From the NCBI GenBank assembly GCA_013153455.1, contig JAADEK010000005.1:1-12355 (forward strand): a stretch of DNA of 12,355 bases, read 5' to 3'. The translations under genes were made by a program, and so were the position numbers. The stretch is from Aquificota bacterium. GTDB lineage: Bacteria > Aquificota > Aquificia > Aquificales > Aquificaceae. This document shows, in pieces, positions 4,699 to 12,251 of this stretch. Numbering within the stretch: position 1 is the stretch's first letter; the number at the start of each line of letters is the position of its first letter. A model generated the notes under the pieces. The model did not search any database, was not told the DNA's origin, and worked only from the letters and a program-made list of their open reading frames with translations.

Positions 4699-4995
4699 TT
4701 AAGCGAATGCAGAGAAAAGGGTAATAAAAAACCCGAAAAGTAAGGCGATTTTACCCTCCCGCGTCTTTAAACCCTTGAAGGCGAGCAGGGAAAACCCCCC
4801 GTAAAGGGGCAAAAGGACGAAAAGACCGAAAAGGGGTTGGGAGAGGAGTTTAAGGGCAAGAGCGGTGGGGACGAGCTTGTGAAACTCCTCGGAGCTGATG
4901 AGTCCGAGAACGTAGAGCACGAGGGCAAGGAGCCAAAGCGTGAGCGGGAAAAAGCCGAGTGAGCAAAAAAGGACTAAGAAACGCTCCGACATCAT
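4699..4995 (-). CDS. Small hydrophobic membrane protein of unknown function
   Basis: A 98-residue protein that I do not recognise. It has three likely membrane segments (about 6-33, 45-73 with P54, and 82-98), a short polar link (SSEEFHK, 34-40) and a basic loop (KGLKTREGK, 74-82) that should face the cytoplasm. The frame stays open to a GTG at 5064, but that start would run 51 bp into trpS on the other strand, so the ATG at 4995 was chosen; the next codon is also ATG. It is the first gene of the operon with the ODP-like protein and Sco, which hints at respiratory oxidase assembly or oxygen handling in the membrane. No Shine-Dalgarno sequence is properly placed: AGGAAG lies 12 nt from the ATG. 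Confidence 0.75.
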   Translation of the reverse strand: MMSERFLVLFCSLGFFPLTLWLLALVLYVLGLISSEEFHKLVPTALALKLLSQPLFGLFVLLPLYGGFSLLAFKGLKTREGKIALLFGFFITLFSAFA

Positions 4996-5013
4996 TCTCT
5001 TAAAATACTTCCT
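4996..5013. promoter_or_regulatory. Very short divergent promoter region between the membrane-protein operon and trpS
   Basis: Only 18 bp separate two outward-reading start codons. TAAAAT (5001-5006) is a -10-like box for trpS, ending 7 nt before its ATG. Read on the other strand, the same bases give TATTTT (5007-5002), ending 6 nt before the ATG of the membrane protein gene. The two putative -10 boxes therefore overlap, and one polymerase would block the other. No clear -35 box is seen. Promoter activity is inferred. Confidence 0.5.
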
Positions 5014-6195
5014 ATGCGCGTAGTTAGCGGAATGAGACCCACGGGGAAGCTCCACCTCGGGCACTACTTCGGCGTCATAAGGAACTGGGTGGAACTACAA
5101 AACAAGCACGAGTGTTTTTTTTTCATAGCGGATTGGCACGCGCTCACGACCGCATACAAGAACACAAAGGAGCTGAGGAAGAACGTAAGGGAACTTATGA
5201 TAGATTGGCTCGCCCTCGGTCTTGACCCCGAAAAGAGCACCCTCTTTATCCAGTCCAAGGTTCCCGAACATGCGGAGCTGTTTTTGCTCCTCGGTATGCT
5301 TACACCGAAAAGCTGGCTTGAGCTGAATCCCACATACAAAGACCTAAAATACAACCTCCTTCGCCTTACGGAGCTACAAAGGGAGCTGAGAAAGCGCGTA
5401 GAAGACCGCGTGAGCGATATCGTCTCGCTCTTACCCGTTGAGATAAAGGATAAAGAGAGGTTCAGGGAGCACATCCTTGAGAGCCTTACCGAGACGCTGA
5501 TAGAGGCGGTTTTTGAAGGAGAGATTGAGCCCCAACTCCTTAAGAAGCTAAACGTATCAAAGCGCGACTACTACGAGACCGACACCTTCGGGTTTCTCGG
5601 ATACCCGGTCTTACAAAGCGCGGACATACTCATATACAAAGGTGAAGCGGTTCCGGTGGGAGAAGACCAGCTCCCGCACATAGAGCTTTCGCGGGAGATA
5701 GCGAGGCGCTTTAACCGCCTTTACCGCGAGATATTCCCCGAGCCAAAAGCCCTCCTCACCGAGACCCCGAAGATTCCCGGAACGGACGGGAGGAAGATGT
5801 CAAAGTCTTACAACAACGCGGTATACTTCTCCGACACACCCGAGGAGGTGAGGAACAAGGTGATGAAGATGTTCACCGACCCTCAAAAGATAAGGAAGAA
5901 CGACCCCGGACACCCGGAACGCTGTCCCGTATTCGCTTGGCACAAGCTCTTTACAAAGGAAGGGCTTGAGGAGATAAAGAGCGCATGCAAAACCGGAAAG
6001 CTCGGTTGCGTTGAGTGCAAGCGCCTCCTCCTTGAGAACCTTGAGAGATTCCTCTCCCCCATTCGTGAGAAAAGAAGGGAGCTAAAAGAGAGGGAAAAAG
6101 AGATAGAGGAACTCTTTTACGAAAGCTCAAAAAAAGCGAGGGCTATAGCGAAGGAAACCATGGAACAAGTCCGAGAGGCTATGAACCTCCCCTGA
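5014..6195 (+). CDS. trpS: Tryptophanyl-tRNA synthetase with apparent 4Fe-4S motif
   Basis: Class I synthetase charging tRNA-Trp. The HIGH-type motif is HLGH (14-17) and the second signature is KMSKS (261-265). FFFIADWHALTT (35-46), LGYPVLQSADIL (195-206) and VGEDQLPHIELSR (215-227) are typical of bacterial TrpRS. At 393 residues it is about 60 longer than the common 330-residue form. The excess lies mainly at about 110-190, a charged helical insertion between LNPTYKD and the FLGYPVLQ motif. C304, C325, C332 and C335 form C-x20-C-x6-C-x2-C, close to the 4Fe-4S site known in Thermotoga maritima TrpRS. The long C-terminal helix is rich in Lys and Glu. The ATG at 5014 has no Shine-Dalgarno sequence. 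The stop overlaps the next start (TGATG), so translation of the two genes is probably coupled. Confidence 0.96.
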   Translation: MRVVSGMRPTGKLHLGHYFGVIRNWVELQNKHECFFFIADWHALTTAYKNTKELRKNVRELMIDWLALGLDPEKSTLFIQSKVPEHAELFLLLGMLTPKSWLELNPTYKDLKYNLLRLTELQRELRKRVEDRVSDIVSLLPVEIKDKERFREHILESLTETLIEAVFEGEIEPQLLKKLNVSKRDYYETDTFGFLGYPVLQSADILIYKGEAVPVGEDQLPHIELSREIARRFNRLYREIFPEPKALLTETPKIPGTDGRKMSKSYNNAVYFSDTPEEVRNKVMKMFTDPQKIRKNDPGHPERCPVFAWHKLFTKEGLEEIKSACKTGKLGCVECKRLLLENLERFLSPIREKRRELKEREKEIEELFYESSKKARAIAKETMEQVREAMNLP

Positions 6196-7807: not shown

Positions 7808-8440
7808 TTACCTGTAGTAGCACTTCCTGTGGGTCTTCATCGCGTAGCGGAGGAGCTCCTCCGCCATCGTAAGGCTCTCAAGGAGCTTTTCCTTGAAGGT
7901 GAGGAGCTTCTCCTCGCTCGGCTTTTGTCTCATAAGCTCCCAAGAGATTAGGTTAAAGAAAGCCTCGCTCCTCCCAAAGTGCTCGGGTGCGCAGTAAAGG
8001 GCGTTGTTCCTCCTCAGGAACTCAACCCTCTTTTTCAGGGAAAAGTAATCAAGGAGTTCTAAAAGCTCCTGCTTTTCGTATCTTCGCTCGTAAAAACACT
8101 CGTCCATTATCCCGTCGCAGTGTTCCTCAAAAAAGAGCCTCGGCTCAAAGACGATAAGCTCCGTCATAGGCTCGCGGTTCGTGTATGCTCCCCTTATCGC
8201 CTTCCTCGCGTTTCTCTCAAAGAGGTTAAAGGCGCTCTTTGCCCCCTCCCTGTCCGCGTCGGAGATGTAAACGAGCATACCCTCGTAGTAGCCGAGAGCC
8301 TTTGAGTAGAGGTAAGGTGTGTCGCTCTGGGCGTTTGCCCCCTTCATCTGTTTTATGAGCCTTTCCGCGGACATGAGGTAATCGCTCAGCGAAGCCCCGA
8401 AGGCTAAAAAGACGAGCAAAAGGAGAGCAAAAACTCTCAT
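7808..8440 (-). CDS. Exported protein of unknown function with four cysteines
   Basis: A 210-residue protein that I cannot assign. The N-terminus is a clean signal peptide (hydrophobic 3-15, likely cut near FGA-SL at 16-17) without a lipobox cysteine, so the mature protein should be periplasmic. The rest looks almost wholly helical. The stretch 40-85, with its YLYSKALGYYE segment and alternating Ala, resembles the short helical-hairpin repeats of DUF4398-type periplasmic proteins, but this is only a resemblance. Cysteines 108, 115, 150 and 207 are even in number and could form two disulfides or bind a metal; C108 and C115 flank an acidic segment (DGIMDE). The start at 8440 is set by AGGAGG (8449-8454) 8 nt upstream. 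It lies 15 nt after rlmI and is likely co-transcribed with it. Confidence 0.8.
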   Translation of the reverse strand: MRVFALLLLVFLAFGASLSDYLMSAERLIKQMKGANAQSDTPYLYSKALGYYEGMLVYISDADREGAKSAFNLFERNARKAIRGAYTNREPMTELIVFEPRLFFEEHCDGIMDECFYERRYEKQELLELLDYFSLKKRVEFLRRNNALYCAPEHFGRSEAFFNLISWELMRQKPSEEKLLTFKEKLLESLTMAEELLRYAMKTHRKCYYR

Positions 8441-9642: not shown

Positions 9643-10530
9643 ATGGATAAGGAATTCAGGAAGCACGAAGAGTATGAAAAGCCCCGCGTTGTTGAGGAGG
9701 GTATATGGCTCGCGGAGGAAGCCCTCAAGAAAGCCCCCAAGCTTGAGGGTGTCCCTTCGGGGGTTGAGGGGCTTGATGAGCTCTTTTTCAAGGCGGAGAT
9801 AAAGGACGGGAAGGTGGTTAAGGTTCCGCTGGGAGGGATTCCCCGCTACGCGGTTGTGAACATAACGGGTGTCTCGGACACGGGAAAGTCCCTTATGGCG
9901 GAGCAGTTTACGGTAAAGCAGGCGGACAGGGGTGAGGCGGTAGCCTTTGTCACGGTTGAAAGCCCCGCTCCCTTCGTGACGCTGGGGCTAAAACAGCGCG
10001 CGACCGCCATGGGTATAGACTTTGAGAAGATAAAGGACAAGATAGTCCTCATAGACGCTGCGTCTCACGCGTCCCTGAGGGAAAACATACCGAACCTGTT
10101 GGCTACGCTCGCCTTTGCGATAAAGCAATACAAGATAAAGCACACCGTCATAGACTCAATCACGGGGCTGTATGAGGCGAGGGAGATGATGGCGCGCGTT
10201 ATAGTGCGCCAGCTCTTTAACTTTATGAAAAAGTGGTATCAGACCGCCCTCTTTGTCTCACAAAAGAGAAGCTCACACGAGGAGCTCTCCGCGGAAGCTG
10301 CGGGAGGGTTCGCGATAAGCCACATCGTTGACTGCACCTTCGTCCTCGCAAAGGAACTCATAATGACCAAGTATCAGGCTCAGATATACAAAAAGGAGAT
10401 AGGGGATATCGTGAGGCTCTTCCGTATAGACGGGTGCAGGCTCTGCGGGCACGACACGAAAACCCACTTTATGGAGATTACCGAGACGGGGCTCGTAAAG
10501 ATAGGACCCCCGATAAGAGGCTCCTCTTGA
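9643..10530 (+). CDS. KaiC-domain ATPase, archaeal-type single domain
   Basis: A RecA/KaiC-superfamily ATPase of 295 residues with one KaiC domain; clock KaiC has two. After a charged N-terminal helix (1-30) comes VPSGVEGLDELFF (37-49), the usual KaiC-domain entry. Walker A is GVSDTGKS (76-83). E106 in VTVESPAPF is in the place of the catalytic glutamate, and Walker B ends in D171 of HTVIDSITG. Q207-K208 in VSQKRSSHEE and the segment EAAGGFAISHIVDCTFVL (218-235) match the later KaiC core. The C-terminal CRLCGHDTKTH (265-275) gives C265, C268, H270 and H275, a possible zinc knuckle. Such proteins occur mainly in archaea and deep-branching thermophiles, with unknown roles; no KaiA or KaiB is present. 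The ATG lacks a clear ribosome site. The 3' end overlaps the convergent gene by 53 bp. Confidence 0.9.
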   Translation: MDKEFRKHEEYEKPRVVEEGIWLAEEALKKAPKLEGVPSGVEGLDELFFKAEIKDGKVVKVPLGGIPRYAVVNITGVSDTGKSLMAEQFTVKQADRGEAVAFVTVESPAPFVTLGLKQRATAMGIDFEKIKDKIVLIDAASHASLRENIPNLLATLAFAIKQYKIKHTVIDSITGLYEAREMMARVIVRQLFNFMKKWYQTALFVSQKRSSHEELSAEAAGGFAISHIVDCTFVLAKELIMTKYQAQIYKKEIGDIVRLFRIDGCRLCGHDTKTHFMEITETGLVKIGPPIRGSS

Positions 10531-11671
10531 GCTCCTCAAGGTAGTGCTCAAGACTAAAGTCGTAAACCTCGTTTTGTGAGACAAGCCTAAAGCCCAAAAG
10601 ACCCTCAACAACCCTCACCTCCCTCACGCTTACCCTCTTTCTCACCTCACCGATTAGGAACTCCCTCAAGCGGGGCTCAACGACGCTCCCCACCTCAAGG
10701 ACGAAACCCTCCTGTTTTAGGTCTCTGAACCTCTCCTCCTCAAACGCCAAAAGCGCAAAGACTATATCCTGAAGCTCCCTGTTTATCCTCTCTTGGCGCT
10801 CCTTGTTGAGCAAAACCCTCAGGCGCTTTAGAGCTCTAAGGACGTTGTCCCGCATACGCTTTGCGCTCCTAAAGCGGTAAAGGTTGAGAGCGGTGTAGTG
10901 CTCAAAACCCAAGAAAGGCGCACCCAACTGAACGTAAAGCCTCATAACCTCCCCCAGAAGAACCTCCTCCGGAACCTCCGTATTTAGAACCTCATCACCC
11001 CTGTAGCGACCCCTCACACTCGGGGGAAGGAACCGAACCAAACGAGGCTCCCAGCTCCCAGCCTCACCCAAGGAAACAGCGCCCGCACCGCCCAGTGAAG
11101 CACCCGAGTAAAACCTTTCCCTCCTTTCTTCTTTTTGTGAAATGACCGCCTTCGGCGGTGAGTATGAGCGCTCAACAAAGGACGAACCGAGGAGCGGACT
11201 CGCGTAAAGCACCCAAACGCTCCCGAGCTCCCCCCTCTCGTAGCGCTCAAAGAGCTTACCGAACAGTCGCACCAATTCCGACTCTAAGAACACCTTCCCG
11301 AAAACACCCTCCACAACGTTTGTGGCGTCTTTTGGGACGCACTTTGAGCCCACCGCTATAAGCTCTTTCGCACCGAAACCCTCAAGCCTCTTCAAGAGCT
11401 TCCCGCAAAGACCCCGCGTGAAAGAAAGGTCGGACAAGAACACAACGAGAGCCTTCCGAGCCTTCCTTTCCCTGAAGAGCGGGTGTGAGGGAAGAAGGAC
11501 GTAAAGGTGCTCAAGGACTTCCTCAAGCCTCCTAAAGTAAGGGAGTTTCCTTATAACGGAGGGCTTTGCCCTCCTGAAGCGGTTAAGGGATATTACAGAG
11601 ATTACGTTGAAGACCTCACCGAGGAGTTCATACGCCTTTATCTTCTCAGAAAGCTTCCTCACACCTTTCAA
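10478..11671 (-). CDS. Degenerate F1-ATPase gamma-like protein with delta-like C-terminal domain
   Basis: A 397-residue protein (usual gamma about 290). Residues 8-60 match the gamma N-terminal helix (EKIKAYELLGEVFNVISV, then LNRFRRAKPSV). Residues 63-91 (HPLFRERKARKALVVFLS, then FTRGLCGK) match the gamma beta-strand entry. The C-terminal gamma helix is clear at 261-312, including NKERQERINRELQDIVFALL (289-308), where the family has ITxEL-EIV-GA; the Thr is Asn and the Gly-Ala is lost. About 176-207 is a Gly/Ser-rich insertion. Residues 325-386 resemble the C-terminal domain of subunit delta: VEGLLGFRLVSQNEVYDFSLEHYLEELKRSLL (355-386, quoted in part as LLGF, DFSL and LxxLxxxL). The start is TTG at 11671 or GTG at 11662, both overlapping rdgB. 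ATP synthase function is doubtful; role unknown. Confidence 0.65.
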   Translation of the reverse strand: MKGVRKLSEKIKAYELLGEVFNVISVISLNRFRRAKPSVIRKLPYFRRLEEVLEHLYVLLPSHPLFRERKARKALVVFLSDLSFTRGLCGKLLKRLEGFGAKELIAVGSKCVPKDATNVVEGVFGKVFLESELVRLFGKLFERYERGELGSVWVLYASPLLGSSFVERSYSPPKAVISQKEERRERFYSGASLGGAGAVSLGEAGSWEPRLVRFLPPSVRGRYRGDEVLNTEVPEEVLLGEVMRLYVQLGAPFLGFEHYTALNLYRFRSAKRMRDNVLRALKRLRVLLNKERQERINRELQDIVFALLAFEEERFRDLKQEGFVLEVGSVVEPRLREFLIGEVRKRVSVREVRVVEGLLGFRLVSQNEVYDFSLEHYLEELKRSLLSGVLSLRAPSR

Positions 11672-12251
11672 GTATACGCGCCAAAGCCCTCAGAGCCTTA
11701 CCCCTGTGGGAAATCCTGTCCTTTTCCTCGGGTGAAAGCTCAGCCATAGTCCTCGTCTCGCCCTCGGGTATAAACACGGGGTCATAACCAAAACCCCCGC
11801 TCCCGCGCGGTGATTCCGCTATCCTTCCCCTCACCTCTCCCTCAGCCCACAGACCCTTTCCGTTCGCATACAAAACGACGAAAGCAACAAACCTCGCACC
11901 CCTCTCCCTTTTGCCCCTAAGAACCCTTAGGAGCTTTTTTATATTCGCCTCATCCGGGCTTTTCCCCTCTTCCTTGCCGAAAAGCTCAAGCTCGTGGAAC
12001 CTGCTTGAGTAAACCCCGGGGTAGGGTGCGATTGCGTCAACTATAAGACCGCTGTCGTCCGCCACGGAAGGAATACCGAACTCCTCCCAGTAGGCTTTAG
12101 CCTTTATGTATGCGTTTTCAAGAAATGAACTCCCCGTCTCCTCCACCTTTAATTTTTTGTGCGGGGGAACGACGCTTATACCCAGAGGTTCAAGTATGCG
12201 ACGGAACTCCTCAAGCTTTCCCGGGTTTGAGGTCGCAACGAGGAGCTTCAT
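11646..12251 (-). CDS. rdgB: RdgB/HAM1 XTP/dITP diphosphatase
   Basis: Cytoplasmic house-cleaning enzyme that hydrolyses ITP, dITP and XTP to the monophosphate plus pyrophosphate, keeping deaminated purines out of DNA and RNA. The 201-residue length is standard. SNPGK (8-12) opens the substrate pocket. FLENAYIKAKAY (43-54) and ADDSGL (64-69) hold the metal and catalytic acids. GFGYDPVF (153-160), MAELSPEEKDRISHRGKA (169-186) and the SHRGKA base-recognition loop (181-186) are complete. The ATG overlaps the stop of the preceding minus-strand gene (ATGA), and its own end overlaps the gamma-like gene by 26 bp, so all three are probably translated as one operon. No Shine-Dalgarno sequence is close to the ATG; coupling to the upstream gene likely supplies ribosomes. 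Confidence 0.96.
   Translation of the reverse strand: MKLLVATSNPGKLEEFRRILEPLGISVVPPHKKLKVEETGSSFLENAYIKAKAYWEEFGIPSVADDSGLIVDAIAPYPGVYSSRFHELELFGKEEGKSPDEANIKKLLRVLRGKRERGARFVAFVVLYANGKGLWAEGEVRGRIAESPRGSGGFGYDPVFIPEGETRTMAELSPEEKDRISHRGKALRALARILERCEEAF

Follow-up and report, generated by a model that had tools for sequence, protein, structure and literature searches.

How could a single polypeptide join a rotor-type subunit of the ATP synthase to a domain that belongs to its stator, a merger difficult to reconcile with an enzyme that works in the ordinary way? The 12,355-nt stretch of DNA analysed here (hereafter the window) encodes such a protein, which we refer to as γ′. The first-pass annotation had described it as a γ-like protein with a δ-like C-terminal domain, and the composite is confirmed across its family, as all 24 members match the γ family PF00231 and the δ-like tail is found in all 24 sequences of the alignment (A3). 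Its orthologues and the selection acting on it rule out an artefactual open reading frame. We favour a GTG over the listed TTG as its start codon, since the gene starts of relatives point there: the GTG-encoded residue is the start in P0001 and in 9/9 relatives (Table 1). The γ′ gene shares 17 bases with rdgB, and its 3′ end overlaps that of the convergent KaiC-like gene by 53 bases (10478–10530), and overlapping 3′ ends recur in the other five loci of the same genus group. The source genome (G000) is incomplete, at 83% completeness and in 126 contigs, and belongs to g1, the genus group that contains Aquifex. No α or β gene was seen beside γ′, whether in the window or in the flanking genes displayed for 14 loci; in the flanks inspected the gene lies outside any atp operon. 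Elsewhere in the window, two minus-strand open reading frames have no Pfam match at E 0.01 (4699–5064, 121 aa; 7808–8440, 210 aa).

Table 1. Features of the γ′ locus, in window coordinates; residues are those of γ′.
Feature	Coordinates	Strand	Details
γ–δ composite gene (γ′)	10478..11662	−	Likely GTG start at 11662; listed TTG start 11671 (open reading frame as listed, 10478–11671)
rdgB/Ham1 pyrophosphatase	11646..12251	−	PF01725, 9.9e-59; directly upstream of γ′
KaiC-like ATPase (TIGR03878)	9643..10530	+	Convergent; not thought part of the system
γ-like part, residues ~1–318	10718..11671	−	N helix 2–59, α/β foot 60–230, C helix 235–318
Insertion in foot, residues 163–196	11084..11185	−	Predicted disordered, pLDDT under 50
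Retained catch-loop tether segment, residues 286–303	10763..10816	−	K290, R292, Q293, E294, I296, E299, D302
δ C-terminal-like domain, residues 323–386	10514..10705	−	β-α-β-β-β-α

The first part of γ′ is a paralogue of F1 γ that retains the γ fold. The window protein matches PF00231 at 66.6 bits, above the cut-off of 39.9, over profile positions 3–279 of 285, and the structure predicted by AF2 from a shallow alignment of 24 rows contains N and C helices around an α/β foot. γ′ thereby shares with canonical F1 γ (atpG, PF00231) the fold from end to end as well as the catch-loop tether motif, but differs from it in carrying an extra insert and the δ-like tail, in not lying beside atp genes and in falling far below the NCBIfam γ equivalog cut-offs used for scoring (best 44.6 of 445 bits; TIGR01146, 35.0 of 194.45). 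The insert lies within the foot and has no counterpart in the canonical γ rows shown in the alignment. Among columns that are 95% conserved in 29 canonical Aquificota γ subunits, γ′ keeps 3/36 in the N helix, 7/37 in the foot and 14/40 in the C helix. A repurposed γ paralogue, one of the possibilities raised by the first-pass annotation, is a likely description of this protein.

The tail is homologous to the C-terminal domain of δ/OSCP (atpH, PF00213) by five routes, namely Pfam, a PDB profile search, hhalign, fold and HMM ranking. For the window protein alone the match to PF00213 is not significant; the match is reached at the level of the family, where the earlier assignment of the tail to δ is upheld, and the copy in G013 covers profile positions 125–171 of 172. 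The N-terminal domain of δ was not detected in the tail (hhalign probability 1.6). The recurring tail pattern is (L/I)(L/G)GF...D-S...L..L, and the distance from R292 to the first tail strand is 33 residues in 21/24 members; of the other three, two have 34 and the last has 31. Canonical A. aeolicus γ ends about 21 residues after the equivalent Arg, so the δ-like domain starts some ten residues beyond the canonical γ end, at a near-constant distance past it. In the ATP synthase, subunit δ is located at the crown of α3β3, where its C-terminal domain binds the b subunits. By analogy, the δ-like domain of γ′ would start on the crown-facing side, where δ itself sits; its orientation is left unfixed by the model because the underlying alignment is shallow and the hinge block (311–320) has a pLDDT of 57.

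Is γ′ simply the γ subunit of its hosts? A search of 136 genomes (query A2) found it in 21/64 Aquificaceae and 0/72 other Aquificota, distributed over four genus groups (g1, 6/7; g5, 10/17; g6, 4/5; g8, 1/2) and no other genera. In this search γ′ scored at least 238.8 bits, below which scores dropped to 112 for canonical γ subunits, with the second pieces of two split γ′ genes at 165 (G071) and 137 bits (G003). Among 5.8 billion proteins, the long matches that carried a name were all from Aquifex, Hydrogenobacter or Aquificota, several others being nameless; the γ′ of G032 (g6) agrees with Hydrogenobacter thermophilus P0013 at 398/399 positions. Spread on plasmids was rejected, as a plasmid search gave no match. 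A canonical γ is also present in 19/21 genomes with γ′ and a canonical δ (atpH) in all 15 scanned for it, which answers the check, proposed in the first-pass annotation, of whether atpG and atpH occur in the same genomes. The two missing canonical γ genes look like assembly gaps: G000 lacks atpG together with the neighbouring atpD, which is why we read its loss as a gap (its PF00006 matches leave α and a Rho-like protein), and the G005 contig breaks off within atpD, the gene that adjoins canonical γ in the complete A. aeolicus genome (G001). The possibility raised at the outset, that γ′ is a divergent sole γ, is therefore ruled out by the canonical copies, with the atpG loss in the window's own genome best explained by the gap. 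γ′ is instead kept beside the canonical genes in Aquifex and Hydrogenobacter, genera that include cultured hyperthermophiles, and this means that some database entries labelled just ‘F0F1 ATP synthase subunit gamma’ probably represent something other than the working γ. In G018 (L037:4410–6956), γ′ runs in frame, with no stop between, into an aminotransferase that we call BioA-like by eye, giving 848 aa that may be a real fusion or an assembly error.

γ′ evolves quickly, with a mean between-species identity of 35% vs 77% for canonical γ over the same 28 pairs from 8 genomes (a ninth, G032, was dropped because the set lacked its canonical γ frame). Together with its patchy presence and a broken copy in G003, this fast divergence could be taken to mean that γ′ is a duplicate in decay that no longer has a function. 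A stop and a frame change split the G003 gene (L044) into two frames, with no N in the stretch, and the near-complete relatives G019 and G020 yielded no γ′; γ′ is therefore dispensable. We nevertheless consider decay very unlikely, as the frame is full length and uninterrupted in 18/21 carriers and G003 is the only one broken without a contig end or a run of N, the other two being split at such a run (G071, L100) or cut by a contig end (G025). The nearly fixed spacing of the domains also speaks against decay, as does ω, which was computable in three of six pairs, two of them at dS above 1.2, the other three being saturated over the whole γ′ gene. The closest pair (G026/G011) gives an ω of 0.127 for γ′, compared with 0.059 for canonical γ, and shows purifying selection on both the γ part (0.137) and the tail (0.087); in the two other computable pairs ω is 0.105 (dS 1.3) and 0.109 (dS 2.2). 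Once the closest pair is set aside, the remaining five have a pN/pS of 0.35–0.54 in the tail vs 0.17–0.26 in the γ part, and the tail is therefore the less constrained of the two in these pairs.

The best-kept segment of γ′ is the catch-loop tether, most of the shaft and foot having diverged. Residues 286–303 keep 8/13 canonical-invariant columns vs 16/100 elsewhere (Fisher p 9e-4, to be read in light of the segment having been picked after inspection of the data), and R292 and Q293 are conserved in 24/24 γ′ sequences. In the alignment these two residues are the equivalents of E. coli γR268 and γQ269, which, according to excerpts of a study of that enzyme, contact the catch loop of βE, with γQ269L reducing F1-ATPase activity about a hundredfold and γR268L tenfold (PMC9447477). 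The same excerpts describe a hydrophobic sleeve that surrounds the γ tip as it passes through (PMC9447477). The corresponding catch loop of A. aeolicus β reads PADDITDP.

These features suggest how γ′ might act. It would enter or cap an ordinary α3β3 head through the tether contacts retained at the top of its shaft, its δ-like domain would then lie on the crown and bind the b subunits as the δ C-terminal domain does, and its coupling to ε and the c-ring would be lost or changed. With a single chain occupying the rotor position and providing the stator link as well, such a head would be unable to rotate freely, and the diverged lower shaft and disordered foot insert fit a protein no longer normally coupled to ε and the c-ring. 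We infer the placement in α3β3 from the fold and a few residues, and binding to the head may have been lost too, given that most canonical-invariant positions are gone. Our leading, if tentative, interpretation, to which we would give slightly less than an even chance, is that γ′ is a regulatory or assembly paralogue (a brake, storage form or placeholder) and not a working rotor. The retention of canonical γ and δ and the purifying selection in the closest pair favour this view, whereas the faster-changing tail in five of six pairs, the location outside atp operons and the dispensability of the gene count against it. A more specific proposal, which we regard as rather doubtful, is a built-in lock in which γ′ fills the α3β3 shaft by way of the tether and its tail anchors the crown on the b stalk, leaving a non-rotating, hydrolysis-silent head; if true, this would be a dormancy brake or assembly intermediate with a mechanism unlike those of IF1, ε or ζ.

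The same retained features could also belong to a true alternative rotor that serves a subset of enzymes or some growth condition, with the extra domain free atop the head. The γ fold, the conserved torque contact at R292/Q293 and purifying selection are all compatible with such a rotor, and no second α/β gene set was seen. We find this improbable, as the foot needed for ε and c-ring binding has diverged and carries an insert, γ′ is far less conserved than canonical γ, and a δ domain at the rotor tip would, given the geometry of the enzyme, meet the δ of the stator.

We also asked whether the genomic neighborhood points to a role outside the ATP synthase, with γ′ serving another hexameric ATPase or process and its neighbours as context. 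The gene order release-factor-like (baeRF family 12), NYN, rdgB, γ′ recurs in g1 and g5 loci, the first two identified by Pfam in the G001 copies only (1.1e-18 and 8.9e-35). Among the g1 and g5 loci whose upstream flank is visible, an rdgB-like gene, recognized by eye, precedes γ′ in 6/6 and 4/4, respectively. The recurring order and the strong overall divergence of γ′ favour an outside role, but the neighbours differ in g6, where a tyrosyl-tRNA synthetase-like gene (tyrS-like, by eye) is upstream, and differ again in g8. As neighbours vary among genus groups, no firm partner emerges from the neighborhood. The best-kept segment being an F1 tether also counts against this role, which we consider unlikely while still taking it seriously. 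The baeRF family 12 and NYN genes (L041:3629–5475 and equivalents) hint at ribosome or RNA quality control.

Individual candidate partners fared no better. The first-pass annotation had placed γ′ beside rdgB and a KaiC-like ATPase; both are adjacent in the window, but KaiC does not stand as a relevant partner, as it adjoins γ′ in 6/6 g1 loci and 0/9 others and occurs in 32/43 family genomes without γ′. We reject it as a partner, and its proximity is probably irrelevant. A link to the flagellar export ATPase (FliI/FliJ/FliH) was likewise rejected, since 4/5 g6 genomes carry γ′ whereas FliH, when searched for, was found in 0/5, with three PF00006 matches in each; γ′ differs from FliH in this distribution. 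The complete A. aeolicus genome has four PF00006 matches, read as α, β, FliI and Rho (three of them among the matches listed), with no sign of extra α/β genes. With these four matches and no α or β gene beside γ′, a subunit of an N-type ATPase was also rejected.

The preferred reading of γ′ as a regulatory or assembly paralogue can be set beside known fusions. In mycobacteria a b–δ fusion is known, and both this and the N-type-like second b of family f3 (L046, with PF00430 and PF00213 by Pfam) place a δ C-terminal domain on another ATP synthase subunit, as γ′ does. These fusions unite two stator parts, whereas γ′ combines a stator domain with a subunit of the rotor type. It provides a case, open to experiment, in which an ATP synthase subunit may have become a regulator or an assembly factor.

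One member of the family has been noticed before, in a study that we take to be that of Koumandou and Kossida (2014). Its text, as excerpted, reports that ATPF1G of A. aeolicus is ectopically duplicated, with one copy very divergent and bearing an 80-aa C-terminal extension (PMC4154653). By species, length and divergence this duplicate is almost certainly the G001 protein (P0007). The excerpted text leaves the extension unassigned and names A. aeolicus alone for it, and three points were not found there, namely the δ identity of the extension, its recurrence in four genus groups and the fact that the tether has been selectively kept (PMC4154653).

Second γ subunits also occur in family f3, where the four that were fetched form a clade separate from γ′ in the tree, and the two whose flanks were inspected lie inside ATPase operons; this, too, led us to reject γ′ as an N-type ATPase subunit. 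The f3 loci (L046 in G054, L047 in G040, L048 in G046, L049 in G052) represent a second ATPase operon without a separate δ gene. Its order in L046 and L049, with roles assigned partly by eye, is a, c, b–δ fusion, α, γ, β, ε and an AtpI-like gene, an arrangement that resembles the description of N-ATPases, but with β and ε coming after γ.
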